In this document: in pieces, positions 1 through 10,755 of the stretch
How positions within the stretch are numbered: position 1 is the first letter of the stretch
Layout of the letters: the number at the start of each line of letters is the position of its first letter
Assembly (NCBI RefSeq): GCF_002735925.1
Contig: NZ_PEDL01000001.1
Location: 372,001 to 436,000 of the forward strand
Direction: 5' to 3'
Origin: Sporanaerobium hydrogeniformans
GTDB taxonomy: Bacteria > Bacillota > Clostridia > Lachnospirales > Cellulosilyticaceae
Length of the DNA stretch: 64,000 bases
The notes under the pieces: model-generated
What the model was told of the DNA's origin: nothing
The model's database searches: none
The model's input: only the letters and a program-made list of their open reading frames with translations
Position numbers and translations under genes: made by a program

Positions 1-1656
1 AGTATTGATTTACCAAAGACTCATAAAAAGATAAAGGGAACTTTAGTTGATATTTCAGTAAGTGGAGCATTAATAAGTATTTCGTCAGCTGATCAAGAAC
101 TTTTGCTTACAGAGAAAGAATATAAGTTGCATTTTAAAATTCCGACAGGCAGTATCCTAGAAGGATATGACCAAAAAGTGCGTATTTATGCAGCTGTTAA
201 GAGAAAAGCAGAGTCTCTTGAAGAAACGAATACATTTTTAGTTGGCTTTAAATTTAGAAAAGATTTAGATAAACATTTTAAATATAGAAGATGGTTTGCT
301 GATTTAACATTTTCTAGCTTCTTTTTAGCCTTTATCGTTTTTTTAATTGCGTTGATGCGAGTAGAAAGCATTATTTATTTTAAGTATGCGCCTTTATTTT
401 ATGGGTATAGTATTTTAACGGCCACCTATCTTTTGACACGTTATTTGTTTGGTGGATTTTATCGTCCTGTACCTATTAATAAGAACTATACACCCGGTGT
501 TTCAGTAATCATTCCTTGCTTCAATGAACAGAGATGGATTCAAAAAACAATTATTAGCTGTCTTAATCAAGATTATCCTACTTCTAAGCTTGAAGTCATT
601 GTAGTAGATGATTGTTCAACAGATGGCTCTGTAGAGGCTATCGAAAAAACCATTGCTCTTCTCAAGGAAAAATGTGGGCAATATGAGCTAGAAGGACGTA
701 TTAAGTTTATTCCTCTTAAAGAAAATAGTGGAAAACGTGTAGCACTTGTTAAAGGGATGGAAGCTGCTACGCATGAGTTAGTGACCTTTGTGGATTCGGA
801 CAGTTTTCTAAAACCCCAAGCTATTCGTCATTTGGTACAGCCTTTTAGAGACCCTAAAGTAGGTGGTGTAACAGGACGAACAGATGTGGAAAATGCATGG
901 ACGAATAGTATTACTAAGATGCAGGCAGTACGTTACTATGTAGCCTTTCGAATGATTAAAGCGGCAGAATCAATTTTTGATGCAGTGACATGTCTATCAG
1001 GTCCTATTTCATGTTATCGTAAAGAATTAGTGGAATACTATAAAGAAGATTGGCTTAGTCAAACCTTTTTTGGACAGCCAGCTACTTTTGGAGATGATCG
1101 AAGTATGACCAACTATATTCTTAAAAATCATCGTACTGTGTATCAAGATACAGCCATTTGTACTACAATTGTACCCTCTGAGTTCAAGGTATTTCTTAAA
1201 CAACAGATGAGATGGAAACGTTCTTGGTTAAGAGAATCTTTAAGAGCTGGAAGTTTTATGTGGAAAAAAGAACCTTTCCAAGCTCTTTCCTTTTATGCAG
1301 GATTTATAGTCCCCCTTTTAGCTCCTTTTGTTATTTTATATAATGTGGTATATGTTCCGCTGACTTATGGGATTTTCCCTTGGGTTTTCTTAATAGGGAT
1401 TTTACTAATGAGTTTTTTGATGAGCTTTATATATCTTTGGTTTAGAAAAAGCAAAATATGGATTTATGGACTATGGTTTTGCCTTTTCTATGAAGGAATT
1501 TTAGTATGGCAAATGCCTATTGCCTGTTTGACCTTCTGGAAATCAACATGGGGTACAAGACAGACCAAGGAAGATGTATTAGCTGAAGCTAAGAAAGAAG
1601 CTAAAAAGATAAAAAGGAGGGGAAATAATGAGTATCAAAGTACAAATGGAGCGTGA
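1..1656 (+). CDS. PilZ-domain processive family 2 glycosyltransferase (5' partial)
   Basis: Membrane polysaccharide synthase predicted to polymerise a nucleotide-sugar at the inner membrane face. The frame is open from base 1, so the start lies outside the window; a TTG at 103 is only an internal codon. Bases 49-66 encode D-I-S-V-S-G, the second c-di-GMP motif (DxSxxG) of a PilZ domain; the RxxxR motif would lie upstream and is unseen. Two membrane segments follow, then a GT2 domain with every motif of processive synthases: VIIPCFNE, VDD, the metal-binding VDSD (790-801), GDDR (1090-1101) and QQMRW (1201-1215), then C-terminal membrane helices. BcsA carries PilZ at the C-terminus; here it is N-terminal. 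The stop lies 29 nt inside the next gene, suggesting translational coupling. The product is inferred to be a hexosamine polymer because the neighbours are NodB-type and GH18-like; cellulose or hyaluronan-like polymers remain possible. Confidence 0.88.
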   Translation, partial: SIDLPKTHKKIKGTLVDISVSGALISISSADQELLLTEKEYKLHFKIPTGSILEGYDQKVRIYAAVKRKAESLEETNTFLVGFKFRKDLDKHFKYRRWFADLTFSSFFLAFIVFLIALMRVESIIYFKYAPLFYGYSILTATYLLTRYLFGGFYRPVPINKNYTPGVSVIIPCFNEQRWIQKTIISCLNQDYPTSKLEVIVVDDCSTDGSVEAIEKTIALLKEKCGQYELEGRIKFIPLKENSGKRVALVKGMEAATHELVTFVDSDSFLKPQAIRHLVQPFRDPKVGGVTGRTDVENAWTNSITKMQAVRYYVAFRMIKAAESIFDAVTCLSGPISCYRKELVEYYKEDWLSQTFFGQPATFGDDRSMTNYILKNHRTVYQDTAICTTIVPSEFKVFLKQQMRWKRSWLRESLRAGSFMWKKEPFQALSFYAGFIVPLLAPFVILYNVVYVPLTYGIFPWVFLIGILLMSFLMSFIYLWFRKSKIWIYGLWFCLFYEGILVWQMPIACLTFWKSTWGTRQTKEDVLAEAKKEAKKIKRRGNNEYQSTNGA

Positions 1657-2590
1657 AGTAAGGAGAAAAAATATAAAAAAGGCTCTACGCAGTGTAGTAG
1701 AGTGGCTCCTTTTGTTAGGGATAGTAATAGGTATAAGTCTGTATTTGCTTTTTCCTAAGACATATAAAGAACCTGATCAAACGTACTGGAAGCAGCAAAA
1801 AGGGTTTTCAGTATTGGCTTATAATGGAGTCACACGAAGAGAAAAAGAAGGATTAATTACTAGAGAGCAGTTAGAAACGCATTTAAAGGCACTAAAAGAA
1901 GCAGGGTATACGTCCATCGGCATACAAGAAATAATAGATTATTATGAAAAAGGAAAACCTTTACCAGAACAAGCGGTGTGTATCCTGTTTGAAGATGGAC
2001 GGAAGGATACTGTAGTTTTTGCACAACCTCTTTTAGAAAAGTATAATTTTAAGGCAGTAATGATGACGTATGCAAGTCAATTTTTATCAAAGGATCGTCT
2101 TTTTTTAAAAGAAAAGGATTTAAAGCGATTAGATAAAAATAGCTATTGGGAGATAGGAAGTAGTGGCTATCGTTTTGCTTATATCAATGTGAAAGAGTCT
2201 GAGCAAACATATAATCATTATTTAATGGATTATTTAAGAGATGGTTATGGCTTAGCTGTAGAGACAACCCAAGAAATGACAGAGCGCTTAAGTTGGGATT
2301 ATGATCAATTAAATGCTGTTTATACAGAAATTCTAGGTTATCAGCCAAGAGCCTATCAAATTATGCATTCAAATAGCTTATATGCTGGTATGAACGAGGC
2401 GGTAGAAAAGGTTAATGATCAAAAGATAAAAGAGTATTTCTCTATTCATTTTAATCGAGAAGGCACTAGCTATAATACAAAACAAGCATCACCCTATGAT
2501 TTGAATTATTGCATAGTAGATGAGAAATGGTCGGCTGAAGAATTGCTTTTGCAATTACAAGAAGATAAAAAGGTTACCTATCAGGAATAA
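1628..2590 (+). CDS. Membrane-anchored NodB-like (PgaB/IcaB-type) protein, catalytically degenerate
   Basis: 320 residues: cytoplasmic basic N-terminus, one membrane helix (about residues 26-42), then an extracytoplasmic domain laid out like PgaB/IcaB deacetylases (FSVLAYNGV near the start, a GY.SI stretch, a ...LP... stretch before strand LFEDG). The catalytic TFDDG motif reads LFEDG (1985-1999), with Glu where the catalytic Asp should be, and the metal-binding H-x3-H region reads GSSGYRF (2156-2176), with both histidines lost. It is therefore probably not an active deacetylase; a structural partner or polymer-binding role is inferred. It overlaps the synthase gene by 29 nt and has ribosome site AGGAGG just before 1628. 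Possible analogue of the accessory subunits that partner BcsA or PgaC synthases. Confidence 0.7.
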   Translation: MSIKVQMEREVRRKNIKKALRSVVEWLLLLGIVIGISLYLLFPKTYKEPDQTYWKQQKGFSVLAYNGVTRREKEGLITREQLETHLKALKEAGYTSIGIQEIIDYYEKGKPLPEQAVCILFEDGRKDTVVFAQPLLEKYNFKAVMMTYASQFLSKDRLFLKEKDLKRLDKNSYWEIGSSGYRFAYINVKESEQTYNHYLMDYLRDGYGLAVETTQEMTERLSWDYDQLNAVYTEILGYQPRAYQIMHSNSLYAGMNEAVEKVNDQKIKEYFSIHFNREGTSYNTKQASPYDLNYCIVDEKWSAEELLLQLQEDKKVTYQE

Positions 2591-2651
2591 GGTAGAAGGT
2601 GTTAAAAAGAAAAGTAAAGGATTAATCTAAAAATAGAGAAGGATAGAAAGT

Positions 2652-3650
2652 ATGAAAAAAAGGATGTTTATGGTAGGAGTAGGCATTATTTGTCTATTTT
2701 TAGTGGGATGCTATGGGTGGATGAAATGGGAAAAAATAGAGTTTGCCGCTTGGATTGTAGATTGGGATAGTGAGCGAGGTATGGAAGAGTATAAAAAAGC
2801 AAAGGATATTTTTGTAAGTAGTGCTCTTTTTGGTGGTTATTTTAAGGAAGATGGAAGTCTCTATTTTCCTGAAGCAGTAGAGAAGATGAAAGAAGAACTG
2901 AAGGCATTAAAGAAGCCTATGTATTTAACTATTGTGAATGATGTATTTTATGATAGTGGAAAAGACATCCAACAAAAAGATGGCAACTTCATAAAGGCTC
3001 TTTTAAAGGATCCTAAAAAGCGTAAGGACCATATTGAGGAACTAGTAAGTGCGGTACAAAAAGGTCCATTTGTAGGTTTAGAACTTGACTATGAGAGATT
3101 AGATGAAGAAGCATGGGAAAATTATAGTGTGTTTATTAAAGAATTAGGTCAGATTCTTGAAAGCAAAAATAAAAAATTACGTATTGTATTAGAGCCCAAA
3201 AGTCCTATTGAAAAGGTAGACCTACCTTTGGCATATGATTACGTGATGATGGCTTATAATCTTTATGGTTACCACAGTGGGCCGGGTCCTAAAGCAGATA
3301 AAGAACTCATTAAAGCTTTGTGTAATAAAATGAAAGCCAATGTTTCAAATAGACAATTAGCTTTTTCATTAGGCGGGTTTGACTGGGTAGAGGGGGAAAA
3401 GCCGCAAGCATTAACTTATAGTGAAGCAGAAGCCTTACGTATAAAAAAGAGGGTAAAAGCAACAAGGGATGGAGCAAGTGGAGCCATATGGTTTCGTTAT
3501 AAAGATGAAAAGGGACATGCACATGAAGTCTGGTATGCGGATAAAATAACACTTGAAAGTTGGGTTAGACAAGCGTATAAGGAAGGTATTTCTCGCTTTG
3601 TCATTTGGCGGTTAGGAGGTAATTTACTAAGTGAAATGAGTGGTTTATAG
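2652..3650 (+). CDS. GH18-like glycosidase lipoprotein
   Basis: 332 residues with a lipoprotein signal peptide ending in lipobox LVGC (around residue 20), so it should be anchored outside the membrane. The body resembles a family 18 TIM barrel: GLELDYERL (3075-3101) corresponds to the DxxDxDxE strand, keeping the last Asp and the catalytic Glu (codon 3093) but losing the first Asp; MAYNLYGY resembles the conserved MxYD/N strand, and a Trp-containing VIWRLGG strand lies near the end. GH18 enzymes cut N-acetylglucosamine polymers by substrate-assisted catalysis, which fits a hexosamine polymer made by the upstream synthase. It may trim or release the chain. Family assignment is by motif only; related YaaH-type peptidoglycan enzymes are an alternative. 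Confidence 0.65.
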   Translation: MKKRMFMVGVGIICLFLVGCYGWMKWEKIEFAAWIVDWDSERGMEEYKKAKDIFVSSALFGGYFKEDGSLYFPEAVEKMKEELKALKKPMYLTIVNDVFYDSGKDIQQKDGNFIKALLKDPKKRKDHIEELVSAVQKGPFVGLELDYERLDEEAWENYSVFIKELGQILESKNKKLRIVLEPKSPIEKVDLPLAYDYVMMAYNLYGYHSGPGPKADKELIKALCNKMKANVSNRQLAFSLGGFDWVEGEKPQALTYSEAEALRIKKRVKATRDGASGAIWFRYKDEKGHAHEVWYADKITLESWVRQAYKEGISRFVIWRLGGNLLSEMSGL

Positions 3651-3726
3651 AAAGAAGCATAATGTATGAATGTAATTTAAAGGATAGATTAAGAATTTAA
3701 AGAGGATATAAATAGAGGAGAGCATA

Positions 3727-5181
3727 GTGATAAGAATGAAAGGCAAAAAAAGAATACTGCTTTTAGTAGGACTCTTGCTGAGCTCGGTAATCGGTTGTCA
3801 AAAAGTAGAAAAGAGGCAGAAATACCCTCTTACAAATGATGGTATCACTAATCGAATAGAAGAAAGTAAAGAAAACTACATCCCTGATTGGCAAGGAGAT
3901 AAGGCAGAAATTATTTCTTATGCTATTACAGAGCAAAAAGTTATGGCACTTACTTTTCAAGGTTTAGGGGGAGAAGAAGAAATGCAAAAACTCTTACAAG
4001 TTCTTGATGAAAGGGCAATTAAGGCTACCTTTTTTGTAGTAGGAAGCAAAATAAATGATCAAGCAGAACAAGCAAAGGAAGTCGTGAGAAGAGGGCATCA
4101 ATTAGGGAATGGGACTGTAAGTGGGTTAGATTTAAGAACAGTAGATTACACTCAAAAAATAATAGAAATAAAAAAATCCCACGAGATGATTGTAAAGCAT
4201 ACTGGGGTAGTTCCCAATGTCTTACGTGTAGGTTATCGTGGGATGGATGAAGAGGTGCAACTAGCAGCAAGTCAATGTGGTTATCCTTATCTTATAGACT
4301 ATACCATTAACCCTCAAGACTGGAAAGGAAAAACACCTGCACAAATAGCTAATTATGTAGATGCGTACAAAAAACGTGGAAGTATTATTGTTTTAAATGC
4401 CGAAAAAACAACACGACTTGACGAAATTGTTGCCTTAATAGACGAAAAGCTAAAGGAGAAACAATTTAGCTGGGTATCATTAGAAGACCTTGTTAAGATT
4501 TATGAGGAAAGGCAAGAAAATCGTTTTGTATTATTAGAAGACTGGTCACAACAAAAGCAAGAGGTATCCAATGGCATTTTTGAAAAAGGACTAAGTGATA
4601 AAAAAAGAGTAGCTCTTACATTTGATGATTGGGCAACAGATGATACGGTGGATCGTATTTTAGATACGTTAGATGCTTATGGGGTAAAGGCTACCTTTTT
4701 TCTGCGTGCAAAGGGGGTAGAAAATAATCCGAGTCTTGCGTATGCCATTTCACAAAGAGGGCATGAGATTGCTAACCATACTTACAGTCATCAAAATTTA
4801 GATACACTTACAAAGGATGAAATCAAGGAGGAAGTGAAAAAAGCCCATGAAGTGATTAGCTGGGCGATTAATAAAGAAGCAAAACGTTATTTAAGGCCTC
4901 CTCGAGGGATCCTGAATGAAGAAATTGCCCAGGCTATTTATGAAGCAGGATATCCTACTATTGTTCAATACGGACCTAGTGCAAGAGATTGGGATTCTAA
5001 TAATAGTGCACAATACATTACTGATTATATGCTAAAAGAGAGCTATAATGGTGCTATCTTACTCTTGCATATATTAGATGATATTCATACACCTGAAGCT
5101 TTGCCAGCTCTTTTAGAAGGACTTCTCAAAGAAGGGTATGAAATAGTTACTGTAGGAGAACTTTTAAATTTATCTTCTTAA
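3727..5181 (+). CDS. Tandem NodB polysaccharide deacetylase lipoprotein (first domain degenerate, second intact)
   Basis: 484 residues with a lipoprotein signal (lipobox VIGC). The GTG at 3727 is preferred: AGGAG at 3716-3720 sits 6 nt upstream, against 15 nt for the ATG at 3736. Two NodB-type domains follow. In the first, TFDDG is replaced by TFQGLGG and NHTYSH by GNGTVSG, so it lacks the catalytic Asp and metal histidines. The second is complete: TFDDW (Asp codons 4624 and 4627), NHTYSH (His codons 4777 and 4789), RPPRG, a DWD strand and LLHIL. This is the only intact deacetylase in the operon and should remove N-acetyl groups from an extracellular hexosamine polymer or from peptidoglycan. 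The degenerate domain may bind substrate. Confidence 0.85.
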   Translation: MIRMKGKKRILLLVGLLLSSVIGCQKVEKRQKYPLTNDGITNRIEESKENYIPDWQGDKAEIISYAITEQKVMALTFQGLGGEEEMQKLLQVLDERAIKATFFVVGSKINDQAEQAKEVVRRGHQLGNGTVSGLDLRTVDYTQKIIEIKKSHEMIVKHTGVVPNVLRVGYRGMDEEVQLAASQCGYPYLIDYTINPQDWKGKTPAQIANYVDAYKKRGSIIVLNAEKTTRLDEIVALIDEKLKEKQFSWVSLEDLVKIYEERQENRFVLLEDWSQQKQEVSNGIFEKGLSDKKRVALTFDDWATDDTVDRILDTLDAYGVKATFFLRAKGVENNPSLAYAISQRGHEIANHTYSHQNLDTLTKDEIKEEVKKAHEVISWAINKEAKRYLRPPRGILNEEIAQAIYEAGYPTIVQYGPSARDWDSNNSAQYITDYMLKESYNGAILLLHILDDIHTPEALPALLEGLLKEGYEIVTVGELLNLSS

Positions 5182-6057: not shown

Positions 6058-7532
6058 ATGTATAAGTATGCGCAAGAAAGAATGCCTATTTATGAAGCCT
6101 TACAAGGTTACAAAGCGAGTCGAATCGTTCCTTTTGATGTGCCAGGTCACAAAAGGGGACAAGGAAATCGAGAGCTTACAAGCTTTTTAGGTGAAGTTGC
6201 ATGGGTATAGATGTGAATTCTATGAAACCATTAGACAATCTATGCCATCCTGTTTCAGTAATCAAAGAAGCGGAAGTTTTAGCGGCAGATGCCTTTGGTA
6301 GTAAGCATGCCTTTTTTATGGTAAACGGGACCACTTCTGCAGTGCAAGCCATGGTTATGAGTGCATGCAAAAAGGGTGAGAAAATTATTATGCCTCGTAA
6401 TGTGCATAGGAGTGCCATTAATGCCCTTATTATTAGTGGAGCTATTCCTGTTTATGTAAATCCAGGTGTAAATAAGGAATTGGGAATTCCGTTAGGAATG
6501 TCCTATGAAAGTGTGAAACAAGCTATTTTAGAAAATCCTGATGCAAAGGCAGTATTAGTAAATAATCCAACTTACTATGGAATATGTTCCCCTTTAAAAA
6601 AGATTACAGAGTTGGCGCATGCACATCATATGCTTGTATTAGTGGATGAAGCCCATGGAACACATTTTTATTTTCATGAGGAGCTTCCACAGTCAGCCAT
6701 GAGTGTAGGAGCAGATATGGCGGCTGTGAGTATGCATAAAACAGGGGGATCCTTAACTCAAAGTTCTTTTTTACTTATCAATAATCAGGTGAAGGAGGGC
6801 TATGTAAGACAGATTATTAACCTTACTCAAACCACAAGTGGTTCCTATCTTTTAATGTCATCACTGGATATTTCGAGGAAAAACCTGGCTCTTAATGGGA
6901 AGGAAATTTTTGATAGAGTGATTGAACTGACTAGATATGCTCGAGAGGAAATAAATAAGCTAGGTGGTTATTATGCCTTTGGAAAAGAGCTTGTTAATGG
7001 AGATACAGTTTTTGATTTTGATGTGACAAAGCTTTCGGTACATACAAGAGCCATTGGCCTTGCTGGTATTGAAGTTTATGATATTTTACGAGATGATTAT
7101 ACGATTCAAATTGAATTTGGTGACATTGGAAATATTTTAGCAATCGTATCTGTAGGGGATAAGGATTTTGCTATTGAACGACTTATTTCTTCTCTTTCTG
7201 AGATTAAAAGGCTTTATAGTAAAGACAAAGCCGGTATGTTAGACCATGAATACATTAATCCTTTAGTAGCTATGACACCCCAAGAAGCTTTTTATACATC
7301 GAAGCATTCAGTTCCTTTAGAAAATAGCAGAGGGAAAATTTGTAGCGAATTTGTGATGTGCTACCCTCCAGGAATCCCCATATTAGCACCAGGAGAATAT
7401 ATCACTCAAGAGATTTTAGATTATATTAACTATGCAAAAGAGAAAGGCTGTTTTTTAACAGGCACAGAGGATCGAGAGGTAGCTCGTATAAATATCGTTA
7501 CTGAGTATGAAGGCTCAGGTGAAGAAGAATAA
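6058..7532 (+). pseudogene. Orn/Lys/Arg decarboxylase (SpeA/Cad-like), interrupted by a one-base frameshift
   Basis: PLP fold-I decarboxylase that would make agmatine, putrescine or cadaverine. The N-terminus starts at ATG 6058 (AAAGGA upstream) and encodes the typical VPGHKRG segment, but stops at TAG 6208-6210. The remaining 443 residues run in another frame from 6201 to 7532 and include VDEAHG, the PLP lysine in SMHKTGG (Lys codon 6738) and the DVNSMKPLDN segment. Adding one G to the GGG at 6203-6205 joins the frames as ...EVAWGIDVNS..., giving about 491 residues, the normal size of short Bacillus-type enzymes. It could be a real lesion, a homopolymer sequencing error, or rescued by internal initiation at ATG 6201 (weak AGGTGA upstream). 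It is first in an operon with spermidine genes. Substrate cannot be decided. Confidence 0.85.
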
Positions 7533-7550
7533 AAACGAAGGAGGAAGGAA

Positions 7551-8396
7551 ATGGAACTTTGGTATACACAGGAACATAGTCCTAATGTAAGGCTTTCCAT
7601 CAAGGTAGACCGTCATATTTATTCAGAGCAAAGCAGATTTCAACGTATCGATGTTATGGAGTCTTATGAATTTGGTACCTTTTTAACACTTGATAGCCAA
7701 ATGATGGTTGCTGAAAAGGATGAATGTATTTATCACGATATGATGGTTCATGTACCAATGGCTACCCATCCAGCTATTCAGAAAGTGCTGGTTATTGGAG
7801 GGGGAGATGGTGGTGCTGTAAGAGAATTAACGCGCTATAAAAGTATTACCCACATTGATGTAGTAGAAATTGATAAACGGGTAGTGGAAGTATGTAGACA
7901 CTATTTACCCCAGACAGCCAGTAAGCTTGATGATGCTAGAGTTCATCTTTATTATGAGGATGGGCTACGTTTTGTACGGGACAAAGAACAGGCCTATGAT
8001 CTTATATTAGTAGATTCGACAGATCCTTTTGGTCCAGGAGAAGGACTTTTTACCAAGGAATTCTATGGTAATTGCCATAAAGCTCTTAAAGAGGATGGCA
8101 TACTCATTAATCAACATGAAAGTCCTTATTATGAGCGTAACAAAGGTTCTCTTCAAAAGACTTATGAACGAGTAAGTGCCTTCTTCCCTATTACAAAATT
8201 TTATGGAGCATGCATTCCTACCTATTCTTCTGGATATTGGTTATTTGGATTTGCTTCTAAAAAATATGATCCTGTTAGAGATTTAAAGAAAGATCAATGG
8301 GAAGCGTTGGAATTAGATACACAGTATTACAATACTGCTATACACAAGGGGAGCTTTGCTCTTCCTAATATGATAAAAAAATTATTTGATAAATAA
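7551..8396 (+). CDS. speE: Spermidine synthase (polyamine aminopropyltransferase)
   Basis: 281 residues, the usual family length. Transfers an aminopropyl group from decarboxylated S-adenosylmethionine to putrescine or a related amine. Visible motifs: GGGDGGAVREL (SAM-binding glycine loop), VVEID acidic residue after strand 2, and DSTDPFGPGEGLF, the catalytic Asp and gatekeeping loop of SpeE. Strong ribosome site GGAGGAAGG before ATG 7551, 18 nt after the decarboxylase. No speD (SAM decarboxylase) is present in the window, so dcSAM must be made elsewhere or the enzyme has a different donor. It sits with a second, dcSAM-independent spermidine route in the same operon. Confidence 0.92.
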   Translation: MELWYTQEHSPNVRLSIKVDRHIYSEQSRFQRIDVMESYEFGTFLTLDSQMMVAEKDECIYHDMMVHVPMATHPAIQKVLVIGGGDGGAVRELTRYKSITHIDVVEIDKRVVEVCRHYLPQTASKLDDARVHLYYEDGLRFVRDKEQAYDLILVDSTDPFGPGEGLFTKEFYGNCHKALKEDGILINQHESPYYERNKGSLQKTYERVSAFFPITKFYGACIPTYSSGYWLFGFASKKYDPVRDLKKDQWEALELDTQYYNTAIHKGSFALPNMIKKLFDK

Positions 8397-8411
8397 GAAA
8401 GGATGATTAAG

Positions 8412-9611
8412 ATGGGAAAAGCATTAATTATTGGAGCGGGTGGTGTAGCCGGCGTAGTGGCACATAAGTGTTGTCAAAATCATGAAGTGTTTGAGGAAAT
8501 TTGTATTGCAAGTCGTACACAATCTAAATGTGACGCCCTCAAAGCTCAGTTAGAGGGGGGGAAAACAAAAGTTCAAACGGCACAGGTGGATGCAGATAAT
8601 ACAGAAATGCTCATTGCACTTATTAAAAGTTTTAAGCCAGATATTGTCATCAATGTGGCCCTGCCTTATCAAGATTTAACCATTATGGATGCCTGTTTAG
8701 CTACAGGAGTAGACTATGTGGATACAGCAAATTATGAACCACTGGATACTGCTAAATTTGAATACAAGTGGCAATGGGACTACCGTGAAAAATTTGAGAA
8801 AGCAGGTATTACAGCTCTTTTAGGAAGTGGTTTTGATCCAGGAGTAACAGGTGTTTTCTCAGCTTATGCTATGAAGCATTATTTTGATGAAATTCATTAT
8901 ATCGATATTTTGGATGCGAATGCAGGAGATCATGGGTATCCTTTTGCAACAAACTTTAATCCAGAAATAAATATTCGAGAGATTACAGCTAAAGGAAGTT
9001 ACATCGAAAATGGACAGTGGATAGAAACAGAGCCTCTTGAAATTAAAAAAGTATATGATTTCCCAGAGATTGGTGAAAAAGAGATGTATCTTCTTCATCA
9101 TGAAGAATTAGAATCGTTAGCCTTAAATATAAAAGGTATTAAACGTATTCGTTTCTTTATGACCTTTTCTGAAAAATACCTCACTCATTTACGTGTCCTT
9201 GAAAATGTGGGAATGACTTCTATTGAACCTATTGAATATGAAGGTAAACAAATTGTACCTTTACAATTTTTAAAGGCAGTACTGCCAGACCCAGCCTCTC
9301 TTGGTCCACGTACCAAAGGAAAAACCAATATTGGTTGTATTATACAAGGTGTAAAAGATGGTCAGCCTAAAACTTATTATGTGTATAATGTATGTGATCA
9401 CGAAGCGTGCTACAAAGAAGTGGGTTCACAAGCTATTTCTTACACGACAGGAGTACCTGCTATGATTGGCGCTATGCTAGTAATGACAGGCAAATGGAAG
9501 AAGCCAGGTGTCTTTAATGTTGAGGAGTTTGATCCCGATCCATTTATGGAGGCTCTTAACAAATGGGGACTTCCATGGCAAGAAAATTTTAACCCTACAC
9601 TTGTAGATTAA
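8412..9611 (+). CDS. Carboxynorspermidine/carboxyspermidine dehydrogenase (saccharopine dehydrogenase family)
   Basis: 399 residues. Condenses aspartate semialdehyde with a diamine (putrescine or diaminopropane) by NAD(P)H-dependent reductive amination, giving carboxyspermidine or carboxynorspermidine in the cytoplasm. The N-terminus GKALIIGAGGVAG is a Rossmann glycine motif, followed by VNVALPYQD and the LGSGFDPGVT segment typical of this Lys9-like family. ATG 8412 is chosen over 8403 because AAAGGA (8398-8403) then has normal spacing. The next gene is the matching decarboxylase, which supports the assignment over lysine-pathway saccharopine dehydrogenase. The amine substrate could also be agmatine, as in cyanobacterial CAPA dehydrogenases. 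Confidence 0.85.
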   Translation: MGKALIIGAGGVAGVVAHKCCQNHEVFEEICIASRTQSKCDALKAQLEGGKTKVQTAQVDADNTEMLIALIKSFKPDIVINVALPYQDLTIMDACLATGVDYVDTANYEPLDTAKFEYKWQWDYREKFEKAGITALLGSGFDPGVTGVFSAYAMKHYFDEIHYIDILDANAGDHGYPFATNFNPEINIREITAKGSYIENGQWIETEPLEIKKVYDFPEIGEKEMYLLHHEELESLALNIKGIKRIRFFMTFSEKYLTHLRVLENVGMTSIEPIEYEGKQIVPLQFLKAVLPDPASLGPRTKGKTNIGCIIQGVKDGQPKTYYVYNVCDHEACYKEVGSQAISYTTGVPAMIGAMLVMTGKWKKPGVFNVEEFDPDPFMEALNKWGLPWQENFNPTLVD

Positions 9612-9621
9612 GGAGGAGAAG

Positions 9622-10755
9622 ATGGGTATACCCTTTGAAAAGATACCGACACCAAGTTATGTAGTGGATGAAGACCTCTTACGAAAAAATTTAGAACGTC
9701 TGCAGTATGTAGAACAAAAAGCAGGCTGTCATATCCTACTGGCTCAAAAAGCTTTTTCTATGTACAGTACCTTTCCATTAATTGCTAAGTATTTGTCAGG
9801 TGTTACATCAAGCTCACTTTTTGAAGCACGTTTAGGTTATGAGGAGATGGGGAAGGAGGTGCATATTTATGCACCGGCCTATAAAGAAGAAGAATTTGAA
9901 GAAATCATGACCTATTGCGATCATATTGTTTTTAATTCGCTCCAACAATGGGGACGTTATAAAGAAAAAGTAGCTAATAATGTTAAAAAAATAGGATGTG
10001 GTCTTCGCATTAACCCAGAGTACTCAGAAATCACAACAGATCTCTATAACCCTTGTTTTCCAGGCTCACGCTTTGGGGAAAAGTCCTCTCAACTTTCAAG
10101 GGAGGCTTTAGAAGGCTTAGAAGGCCTGCACTTCCATACCTTATGTGAGCAAAATGCAGATGCACTTATCCATACGTTGGAGAGAGTAGAGGAAAAGTTT
10201 GGGAAATACCTTTATGATATGAAGTGGCTTAATATGGGGGGAGGACATCATATTACACGAGAGGATTATGAGGTAGAGGCTTTAATAAAGGTGATTCAGC
10301 ATATAAAGAAAAAATATGATTTAGAAATTTATTTAGAGCCTGGGGAAGCAGTAGCTCTTAATACAGGGTATTTAGTTGCCACTGTTTTAGATACGTTTGA
10401 GAATGACAAGCTCCTAGGCATTTTAGATGCTTCAGCAGCATGTCATATGCCTGATGTATTAGAGATGCCCTATAGACCTTTTATAATTGGGAGTGGTAAA
10501 GAAGGCGAATATCCTTATACGTACCGCCTAGGTGGAGCTACCTGTTTAGCAGGGGATGTAATTGGTGATTATTCCTTTAAAAAACCACTTCAACCAGGAG
10601 ATAAACTTGTTTTTTGTGATATGGCCCATTACACAATGGTAAAAAACAATACCTTCAATGGGGTTAATTTACCTTCTATTTTATTATATAGTGAAGAGAC
10701 AGGTTTTCGTCTTATTAAAGAATTTGCATATGAAGATTTTAAATCGCGCTTATAA
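9622..10755 (+). CDS. nspC: Carboxynorspermidine/carboxyspermidine decarboxylase
   Basis: 377 residues, PLP-dependent fold-III (alanine racemase-like) decarboxylase that removes the carboxyl group to release spermidine or norspermidine. Motifs: PTPSYVVDE at the N-terminus, PLP lysine in LLAQKAFSM (around residue 43), LHFHTLCEQ, the phosphate-binding GGGHH, and a C-terminal YTMVKNNTFNG segment typical of NspC. The gene starts 10 nt after the dehydrogenase with ribosome site AGGAGGAG, so the pair is co-translated. Which polyamine it makes depends on the diamine supplied and is not visible. Confidence 0.9.
   Translation: MGIPFEKIPTPSYVVDEDLLRKNLERLQYVEQKAGCHILLAQKAFSMYSTFPLIAKYLSGVTSSSLFEARLGYEEMGKEVHIYAPAYKEEEFEEIMTYCDHIVFNSLQQWGRYKEKVANNVKKIGCGLRINPEYSEITTDLYNPCFPGSRFGEKSSQLSREALEGLEGLHFHTLCEQNADALIHTLERVEEKFGKYLYDMKWLNMGGGHHITREDYEVEALIKVIQHIKKKYDLEIYLEPGEAVALNTGYLVATVLDTFENDKLLGILDASAACHMPDVLEMPYRPFIIGSGKEGEYPYTYRLGGATCLAGDVIGDYSFKKPLQPGDKLVFCDMAHYTMVKNNTFNGVNLPSILLYSEETGFRLIKEFAYEDFKSRL

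Follow-up and report, generated by a model that had tools for sequence, protein, structure and literature searches.

Several described polysaccharide systems resemble parts of the operon analyzed here. The Class I hyaluronan synthases (HAS), such as Chlorella virus HAS, Xenopus HAS1, and streptococcal HasA, have in common with its synthase the GT2 fold and the SGP, GDDR, QxxRW, and WGTR motifs. In the Has operon, the HasA synthase is partnered with the HasB dehydrogenase, and the pairing of a synthase with a nucleotide-sugar 6-dehydrogenase is found in relatives of the present operon as well. Unlike Class I HAS, however, the present operon has an N-terminal PilZ domain, NodB and GH18 partners, and, in relatives, a dehydrogenase of the HexNAc rather than the UDP-Glc type and c-di-GMP riboswitches. 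The Pga and Ica poly-GlcNAc systems (PgaB, IcaB) likewise join a GT2 synthase to an extracytoplasmic NodB and a GH partner, and our NodB protein N1 is predicted to have the PgaB-type fold. They differ from the present operon, in which N1 is without the catalytic and metal residues (one Asp apart; see below), PgaA and PgaD are missing, the only intact deacetylase comes from a separate CE4 array, and a GH18 protein replaces the GH domain of PgaB. The likeness to rhizobial NodB/NodC lies in NodC being the top family model of the GT2 and in NodB being the deacetylase fold; to our knowledge, rhizobial NodC has no PilZ domain, and NodB/NodC come without tandem dead NodB domains or a GH18 partner. 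Finally, Bcs, the clostridial Ccs cellulose synthases, and Romboutsia RiGT2 provide examples of processive GT2 enzymes with PilZ in Firmicutes. The PilZ domain of our synthase is N-terminal and without RxxxR, whereas that of RiGT2 is C-terminal with RxxxR (PMC10374906).

Organization of the locus

The DNA analyzed, hereafter the window, comprises 64,000 nt of the Sporanaerobium hydrogeniformans assembly GCF_002735925.1 (contig NZ_PEDL01000001.1, positions 372,001-436,000, forward strand; G000:C11:372001-436000). Four plus-strand genes follow one another in the order PilZ-GT2, N1, GH18 lipoprotein, and N2 (Table 1), and both this order and the coordinates agree with those proposed in an earlier note on the same DNA. 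The start of N1 overlaps the 3' end of PilZ-GT2 by 29 bases. Since the window edge cuts the first open reading frame (ORF), a reading of its PilZ domain from the window alone was dropped in favor of the assembly sequence: the full-length protein has 634 residues and starts at G000:C11:371752, 249 bp (83 codons) before the window. Pfam recognizes both PilZ and Glycos_transf_2 on this ORF, confirming the proposed fusion of an N-terminal PilZ domain to a complete GT2; further domains above the Pfam cut-off are GH18 and, in N2, two stretches of Polysacc_deac_1. Upstream of PilZ-GT2, C11:371663-371692 matches a sigma-70-type promoter at 12/12 positions, a consensus match only.

Directly downstream of the operon, window positions 6201-10755 hold a polyamine-type gene set, named from the translations only, with Orn/Lys/Arg decarboxylase-like, spermidine synthase-like, saccharopine dehydrogenase-like, and carboxynorspermidine decarboxylase-like ORFs.

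Table 1. Features of the operon, in window coordinates
Feature	Position	Strand	Remarks
PilZ-GT2 processive glycosyltransferase	1..1656	+	C-terminal 551 of 634 aa inside the window
PilZ domain	1..276, begins ~26 bases before the window	+	DISVSG motif; canonical RxxxR absent
GT2 catalytic domain, hyaluronan-synthase/NodC-like	493..1221	+	
N1, membrane-anchored PgaB-type NodB pseudo-deacetylase, short form	1628..2590	+	
GH18-type lipoprotein	2652..3650	+	lipobox LVGC; D146-x-E148 conserved
N2, tandem NodB lipoprotein	3727..5181	+	lipobox SVIGC
N2 domain 1, dead	3919..4509	+	Q, G, G, G at the D, D, H, H positions
N2 domain 2, intact CE4 active site	4588..5169	+	D, D, H, H, R, D-W, H

The synthase and its GH18 partner

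The DD, DSD, GDDR, QQxRW, and WGTR motifs of the GT2 are invariant in its orthologues. The residues concerned include those that mark a processive GT2 (D286/D287, D348/D350, G447-D448-D449-R450, and Q484-Q485-x-R487-W488), and the HAS-type S416-G417-P418 and W600-G601-T602-R603 are invariant, too. NodC is the top NCBIfam model, followed by PgaC. Equivalog status was rejected for both, the scores being 184.7 bits against a cut-off of 550 for NodC (TIGR04242) and 128 bits against 422 for PgaC/IcaA (TIGR03937). The best PDB sequence matches are hyaluronan synthases. The AF2 model is nearest to XlHAS1/CvHAS (best E value, 1e-21, versus 3e-13 for BcsA and 1e-11 for Chs1), and its first 13 Foldseek matches are all HAS. 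Judged by sequence and modeled fold, the GT2 is hyaluronan-synthase-like.

In the GH18 lipoprotein, D146 and E148 (D-x-E) are invariant in 74/74 orthologues. Set against DxxDxDxE, the window motif VGLELDYE does not keep the first two Asp residues, and the catalytic Glu is present.

One live deacetylase domain per N2 array

Most N2 arrays comprise between two and four NodB domains. At the four catalytic columns scored, 82 of these domains are intact and 152 are dead. Exactly one intact domain is found in 72 of the 78 loci, in last place, and none of the 143 non-last domains is intact. The exceptional loci have a second N2 gene (L016 and L082), a NodB gene standing separately downstream (L028, L038, and L088), or a contig end (L011). 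Among the 152 dead N2 domains, partial ones included in the count, 147 have Gly at the metal Asp position, and the dead domains show no conservation at the His positions. In the window, N2 domain 1 is without the residues expected of a CE4 enzyme, and domain 2 has them all (Table 1); PgdA, PdaA, and PdaC structures are among the PDB matches. The earlier claim of one active and two dead NodB domains is thus borne out, N1 and N2 domain 1 being degenerate and N2 domain 2 intact. This dead/alive pattern is a rule of the family, far beyond chance. Sequence comparison supports the view that the degenerate domains are kept by selection, and it is plausible that they have a putative binding or structural role.

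In the Sporomusa loci, the additional intact NodB gene lies about 4 kb downstream of the GT2 (L028:15806-16645, L038:15691-16545, and L088:15781-16620).

N1, a degenerate PgaB-type protein

The window N1 scores just under the Pfam cut-off (22.2 versus 23.1 bits) and matches PgaB in NCBIfam (2.5e-13). Its AF2 model (pLDDT, 92) has an N-terminal membrane helix and is closest to the PgaB/IcaB de-N-acetylases, the NodB fold giving target TM scores of 0.74 to 0.83 against isolated PgaB-type domains. The protein has FEDG instead of FDDG and Asn at the PgaB H55-type His, and the metal His pair is absent. All 78 N1 sequences are degenerate, with E122 in place of the catalytic Asp in 78/78 and no MT2 His pair. 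The loss of the catalytic Asp and of the metal histidines noted earlier is therefore correct; the metal-type Asp, D123, is kept, as the sole remaining member of the set formed by the catalytic Asp and the metal D-H-H. Besides, R125, G180, Y181, R182, N187, H197 (75/78), D201, R204, E212, R220, H247 (72/78), and N249 are nearly invariant, and such residues of its own argue against decay.

The same conservation could reflect a new active site. N1, perhaps together with the first N2 domains, would then be an enzyme with changed chemistry, N1 employing E122, D123, H197, D201, and H247, which are nearly invariant in the 78 sequences. H197 and H247 would be the candidates for metal histidines provided elsewhere in the chain, the case that the earlier note had named as a refutation. 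The NodB-fold protein 3CL6, which lacks both the MT1 Asp and the second MT2 His and yet is a metal-independent enzyme, offers a precedent (PMC10967932). The Gly substitutions and unconserved His positions of the dead N2 domains speak against this idea, which we regard as unlikely; we prefer to see N1 and the dead domains as binding or structural parts.

N1 measures about 320 residues in the window and in Clostridium bornimense, compared with 560 to 640 in the long forms. Most orthologues have an extra C-terminal domain of about 230 to 280 residues that is absent from the window N1. In long N1 proteins (L037, L049, and L013), this domain gives only weak concanavalin-like matches (PF06439 at an E value of 5e-4 in one protein; lectin and alginate lyase at E values of 0.01 to 0.14).

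Distribution and gene neighborhood

A GT2-based scan of 84,980 genomes yielded 80 loci, and the operon genes are clustered at nearly all related loci, most commonly in the order N2-GT-N1-GH. Carriers are found in Clostridium, Butyrivibrio and other Lachnospirales, Sporomusaceae, Selenomonadaceae, Acidaminococcaceae, Veillonellaceae, Lysinibacillus and relatives, Paenibacillus, and three Desulfobacterota, whose loci have GT and N1 but no N2 next to them. The GT tree mostly mirrors taxonomy. Carriage is patchy, with 7 of the 294 genomes from the window organism's order having the operon. The window and C. bornimense sequences are sisters that have in common a short N1 and a downstream N2. A "Gram-positive" system, as the earlier note had it, is too narrow a description, since diderm Negativicutes and the three Desulfobacterota carry the operon. 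The same note took the assembly to be undescribed: we found no publication on the operon in the open-access literature (preprints and most subscription journals lay outside the search), but the assembly is not isolated, being conserved in many genera. As proposed, BcsB-, PgaA-, and PgaD-like genes are lacking; none recurs near the operon across the related loci.

Diderm relatives have an extra outer-membrane-barrel-like gene in the operon, the product of which is possibly an outer-membrane exporter. In diderm Negativicutes, this gene (L013:4413-5918 and equivalents) has no Pfam or NCBIfam match and lies downstream of a c-di-GMP riboswitch, and most of its products end in the aromatic residue Phe. 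At another locus, a short UvrC-like GIY-YIG ORF of 332 residues lies just upstream of the operon (L004:15635-16633).

The live NodB domain scores best against PdaB (1.3e-81), and the GH18 matches include the spore cortex enzymes YdhD and YaaH, as would befit a sporulation or peptidoglycan-modifying operon. However, the carriers include Butyrivibrio, Selenomonas, Acidaminococcus, and Megasphaera, which are usually described as non-sporing. A role in sporulation was rejected on this distribution; nor would it account for a processive synthase, a sugar dehydrogenase, and c-di-GMP riboswitches, and we consider it highly improbable. The operon is best read as a conserved system, a variant of the synthase-dependent exopolysaccharide systems.

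A linked dehydrogenase and the nature of the polymer

In 37 of 81 loci, an operon gene is adjoined by a nucleotide-sugar dehydrogenase of probable UDP-HexNAc type (TviB, WecC, Cap5O-like), a substrate type drawn from its HMM and PDB relatives only; a UDP-glucose dehydrogenase type was rejected in its favor. The two genes overlap or lie within about 60 bp, often about 10 bp. This linkage spans Negativicutes, Bacilli, and Clostridia, including Lysinibacillus and the nearest relative of the window, C. bornimense; in Paenibacillus, the dehydrogenase is placed between N2 and GT. The window operon has no linked dehydrogenase, and the closest homologue in its genome, 60% identical to the C. bornimense protein, is on contig C61, away from the operon. 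Unlinked homologues occur in all 15 other carrier genomes checked (46 to 61% identity in nine and 34 to 38% in the rest), those of Clostridium sensu stricto being 35 to 38% identical. As a control, the dehydrogenase was also found in 5 of 22 related genomes (family) without the operon.

A hyaluronan-synthase-like GT2 together with a linked HexNAc-type dehydrogenase in many relatives makes a uronate-containing polymer likelier than the plain hexosamine polymer put forward in the earlier note, of which the assignment to an exopolysaccharide synthase operon stands. The main alternative that keeps to hexosamine is a PNAG or chitin/chitosan-type homopolymer, for which the GT2 would make poly-GlcNAc, the live NodB would deacetylate it, and the GH18 would cleave it, with no uronic acid. 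NodC and PgaC as top GT2 family models, the PgaB-like N1, and the lack of a linked dehydrogenase in the window operon are all in its favor. GH18 enzymes, moreover, usually act on N-acetylhexosamine polymers. Since the structure and PDB sequence matches of the GT2 favor hyaluronan synthases and the tight linkage of the HexNAc dehydrogenase extends over several classes, we consider a homopolymer rather unlikely, and prefer a polymer that would contain aminouronate.

Evidence for control by c-di-GMP

The PilZ domain of this operon has the [D/N]xSxxG motif as DISVSG (D/N in 80, S in 81, and G in 80 of 82 sequences). The RxxxR motif, whose absence upstream of the window the earlier note had set as its own refutation, is indeed absent: position -4 is Glu in this protein, and Arg occurs there in 0 of 77 scorable sequences. 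The arginine pair RR 65/66 is conserved in 76/77, yet lies 10 to 27 residues away, and R76 is also conserved; an insertion separates the arginines, so gating through this PilZ domain would be atypical. Two other PilZ proteins in the window genome carry RxxxR. For Romboutsia RiGT2, with its C-terminal PilZ and RxxxR, no c-di-GMP binding was nevertheless measured (PMC10374906).

In C. bornimense (L012:10019-11839), the PilZ region is without DxSxxG and the conserved arginines, and the GT2 motifs remain, which suggests that PilZ control was lost in this lineage.

When 50 loci were scanned with Rfam, 12 had a c-di-GMP riboswitch ahead of the operon. Eleven Sporomusaceae-clade loci have a c-di-GMP-I riboswitch, with the first gene 101 to 193 bp away in ten and 812 bp away in L088; the genes behind it are tightly packed in the order barrel-like gene, dehydrogenase, N2, GT, N1, and GH (L031 is without the dehydrogenase there). 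In Clostridium carboxidivorans, a c-di-GMP-II riboswitch lies 63 bp before N2. Because the Sporomusaceae set counts as one lineage, the independent links number two, each through a different riboswitch class. The Rfam scan gave no riboswitch for the window operon, and one c-di-GMP-I riboswitch is present elsewhere in the genome. GGDEF proteins, found in 25/25 carrier genomes checked, add weak support, such genes being common. Control of the operon family by c-di-GMP is therefore supported, the riboswitches in relatives being stronger evidence than PilZ; of the gating claimed earlier, the family-level control is retained, whereas the PilZ route, without RxxxR, would be atypical.

A model for synthesis and processing

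The mechanism that we judge probable for this operon is as follows. The PilZ-GT2, a HAS-like enzyme, would polymerize an N-acetylhexosamine chain, probably with aminouronic acid supplied by the HexNAc 6-dehydrogenase, and would extrude it through a membrane channel of the enzyme itself. On the outer side, the chain may be held by the non-catalytic NodB folds (N1 and N2 domain 1), which would bind sugar or keep the polymer in position. The last N2 domain, the one NodB left intact, would de-N-acetylate part of the chain, and the GH18 lipoprotein would trim or release it. In relatives, c-di-GMP riboswitches would control the operon, to which PilZ probably adds control at the enzyme level. Points that weigh against this mechanism are the missing RxxxR, the lack of a riboswitch and of a linked dehydrogenase in the window operon, the dehydrogenases of operon-free genomes, and the low identity of the unlinked homologues in Clostridium sensu stricto.

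A bolder and more tentative proposal, which we put forward as a possibility, is that the operon represents an undescribed, widespread c-di-GMP-controlled system for a hyaluronan-like polymer made of GlcNAc and an aminouronic acid, with partial de-N-acetylation yielding a zwitterionic chain. The series of dead NodB domains would then serve as a processing track, and N1 would be either a binding protein or a new enzyme.

With a single live N2 domain accompanied by one to three dead ones, and with a dead N1 besides, the family offers a clean natural test of pseudo-enzyme domains in polysaccharide export. The operon recurs in at least five Firmicutes orders, including rumen Butyrivibrio, acetogenic Sporomusa and Clostridium, and Lysinibacillus. 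From this recurrence, together with the linkage to c-di-GMP riboswitches, a biofilm polymer is predicted for bacteria in which little is known about the polymers of the matrix.
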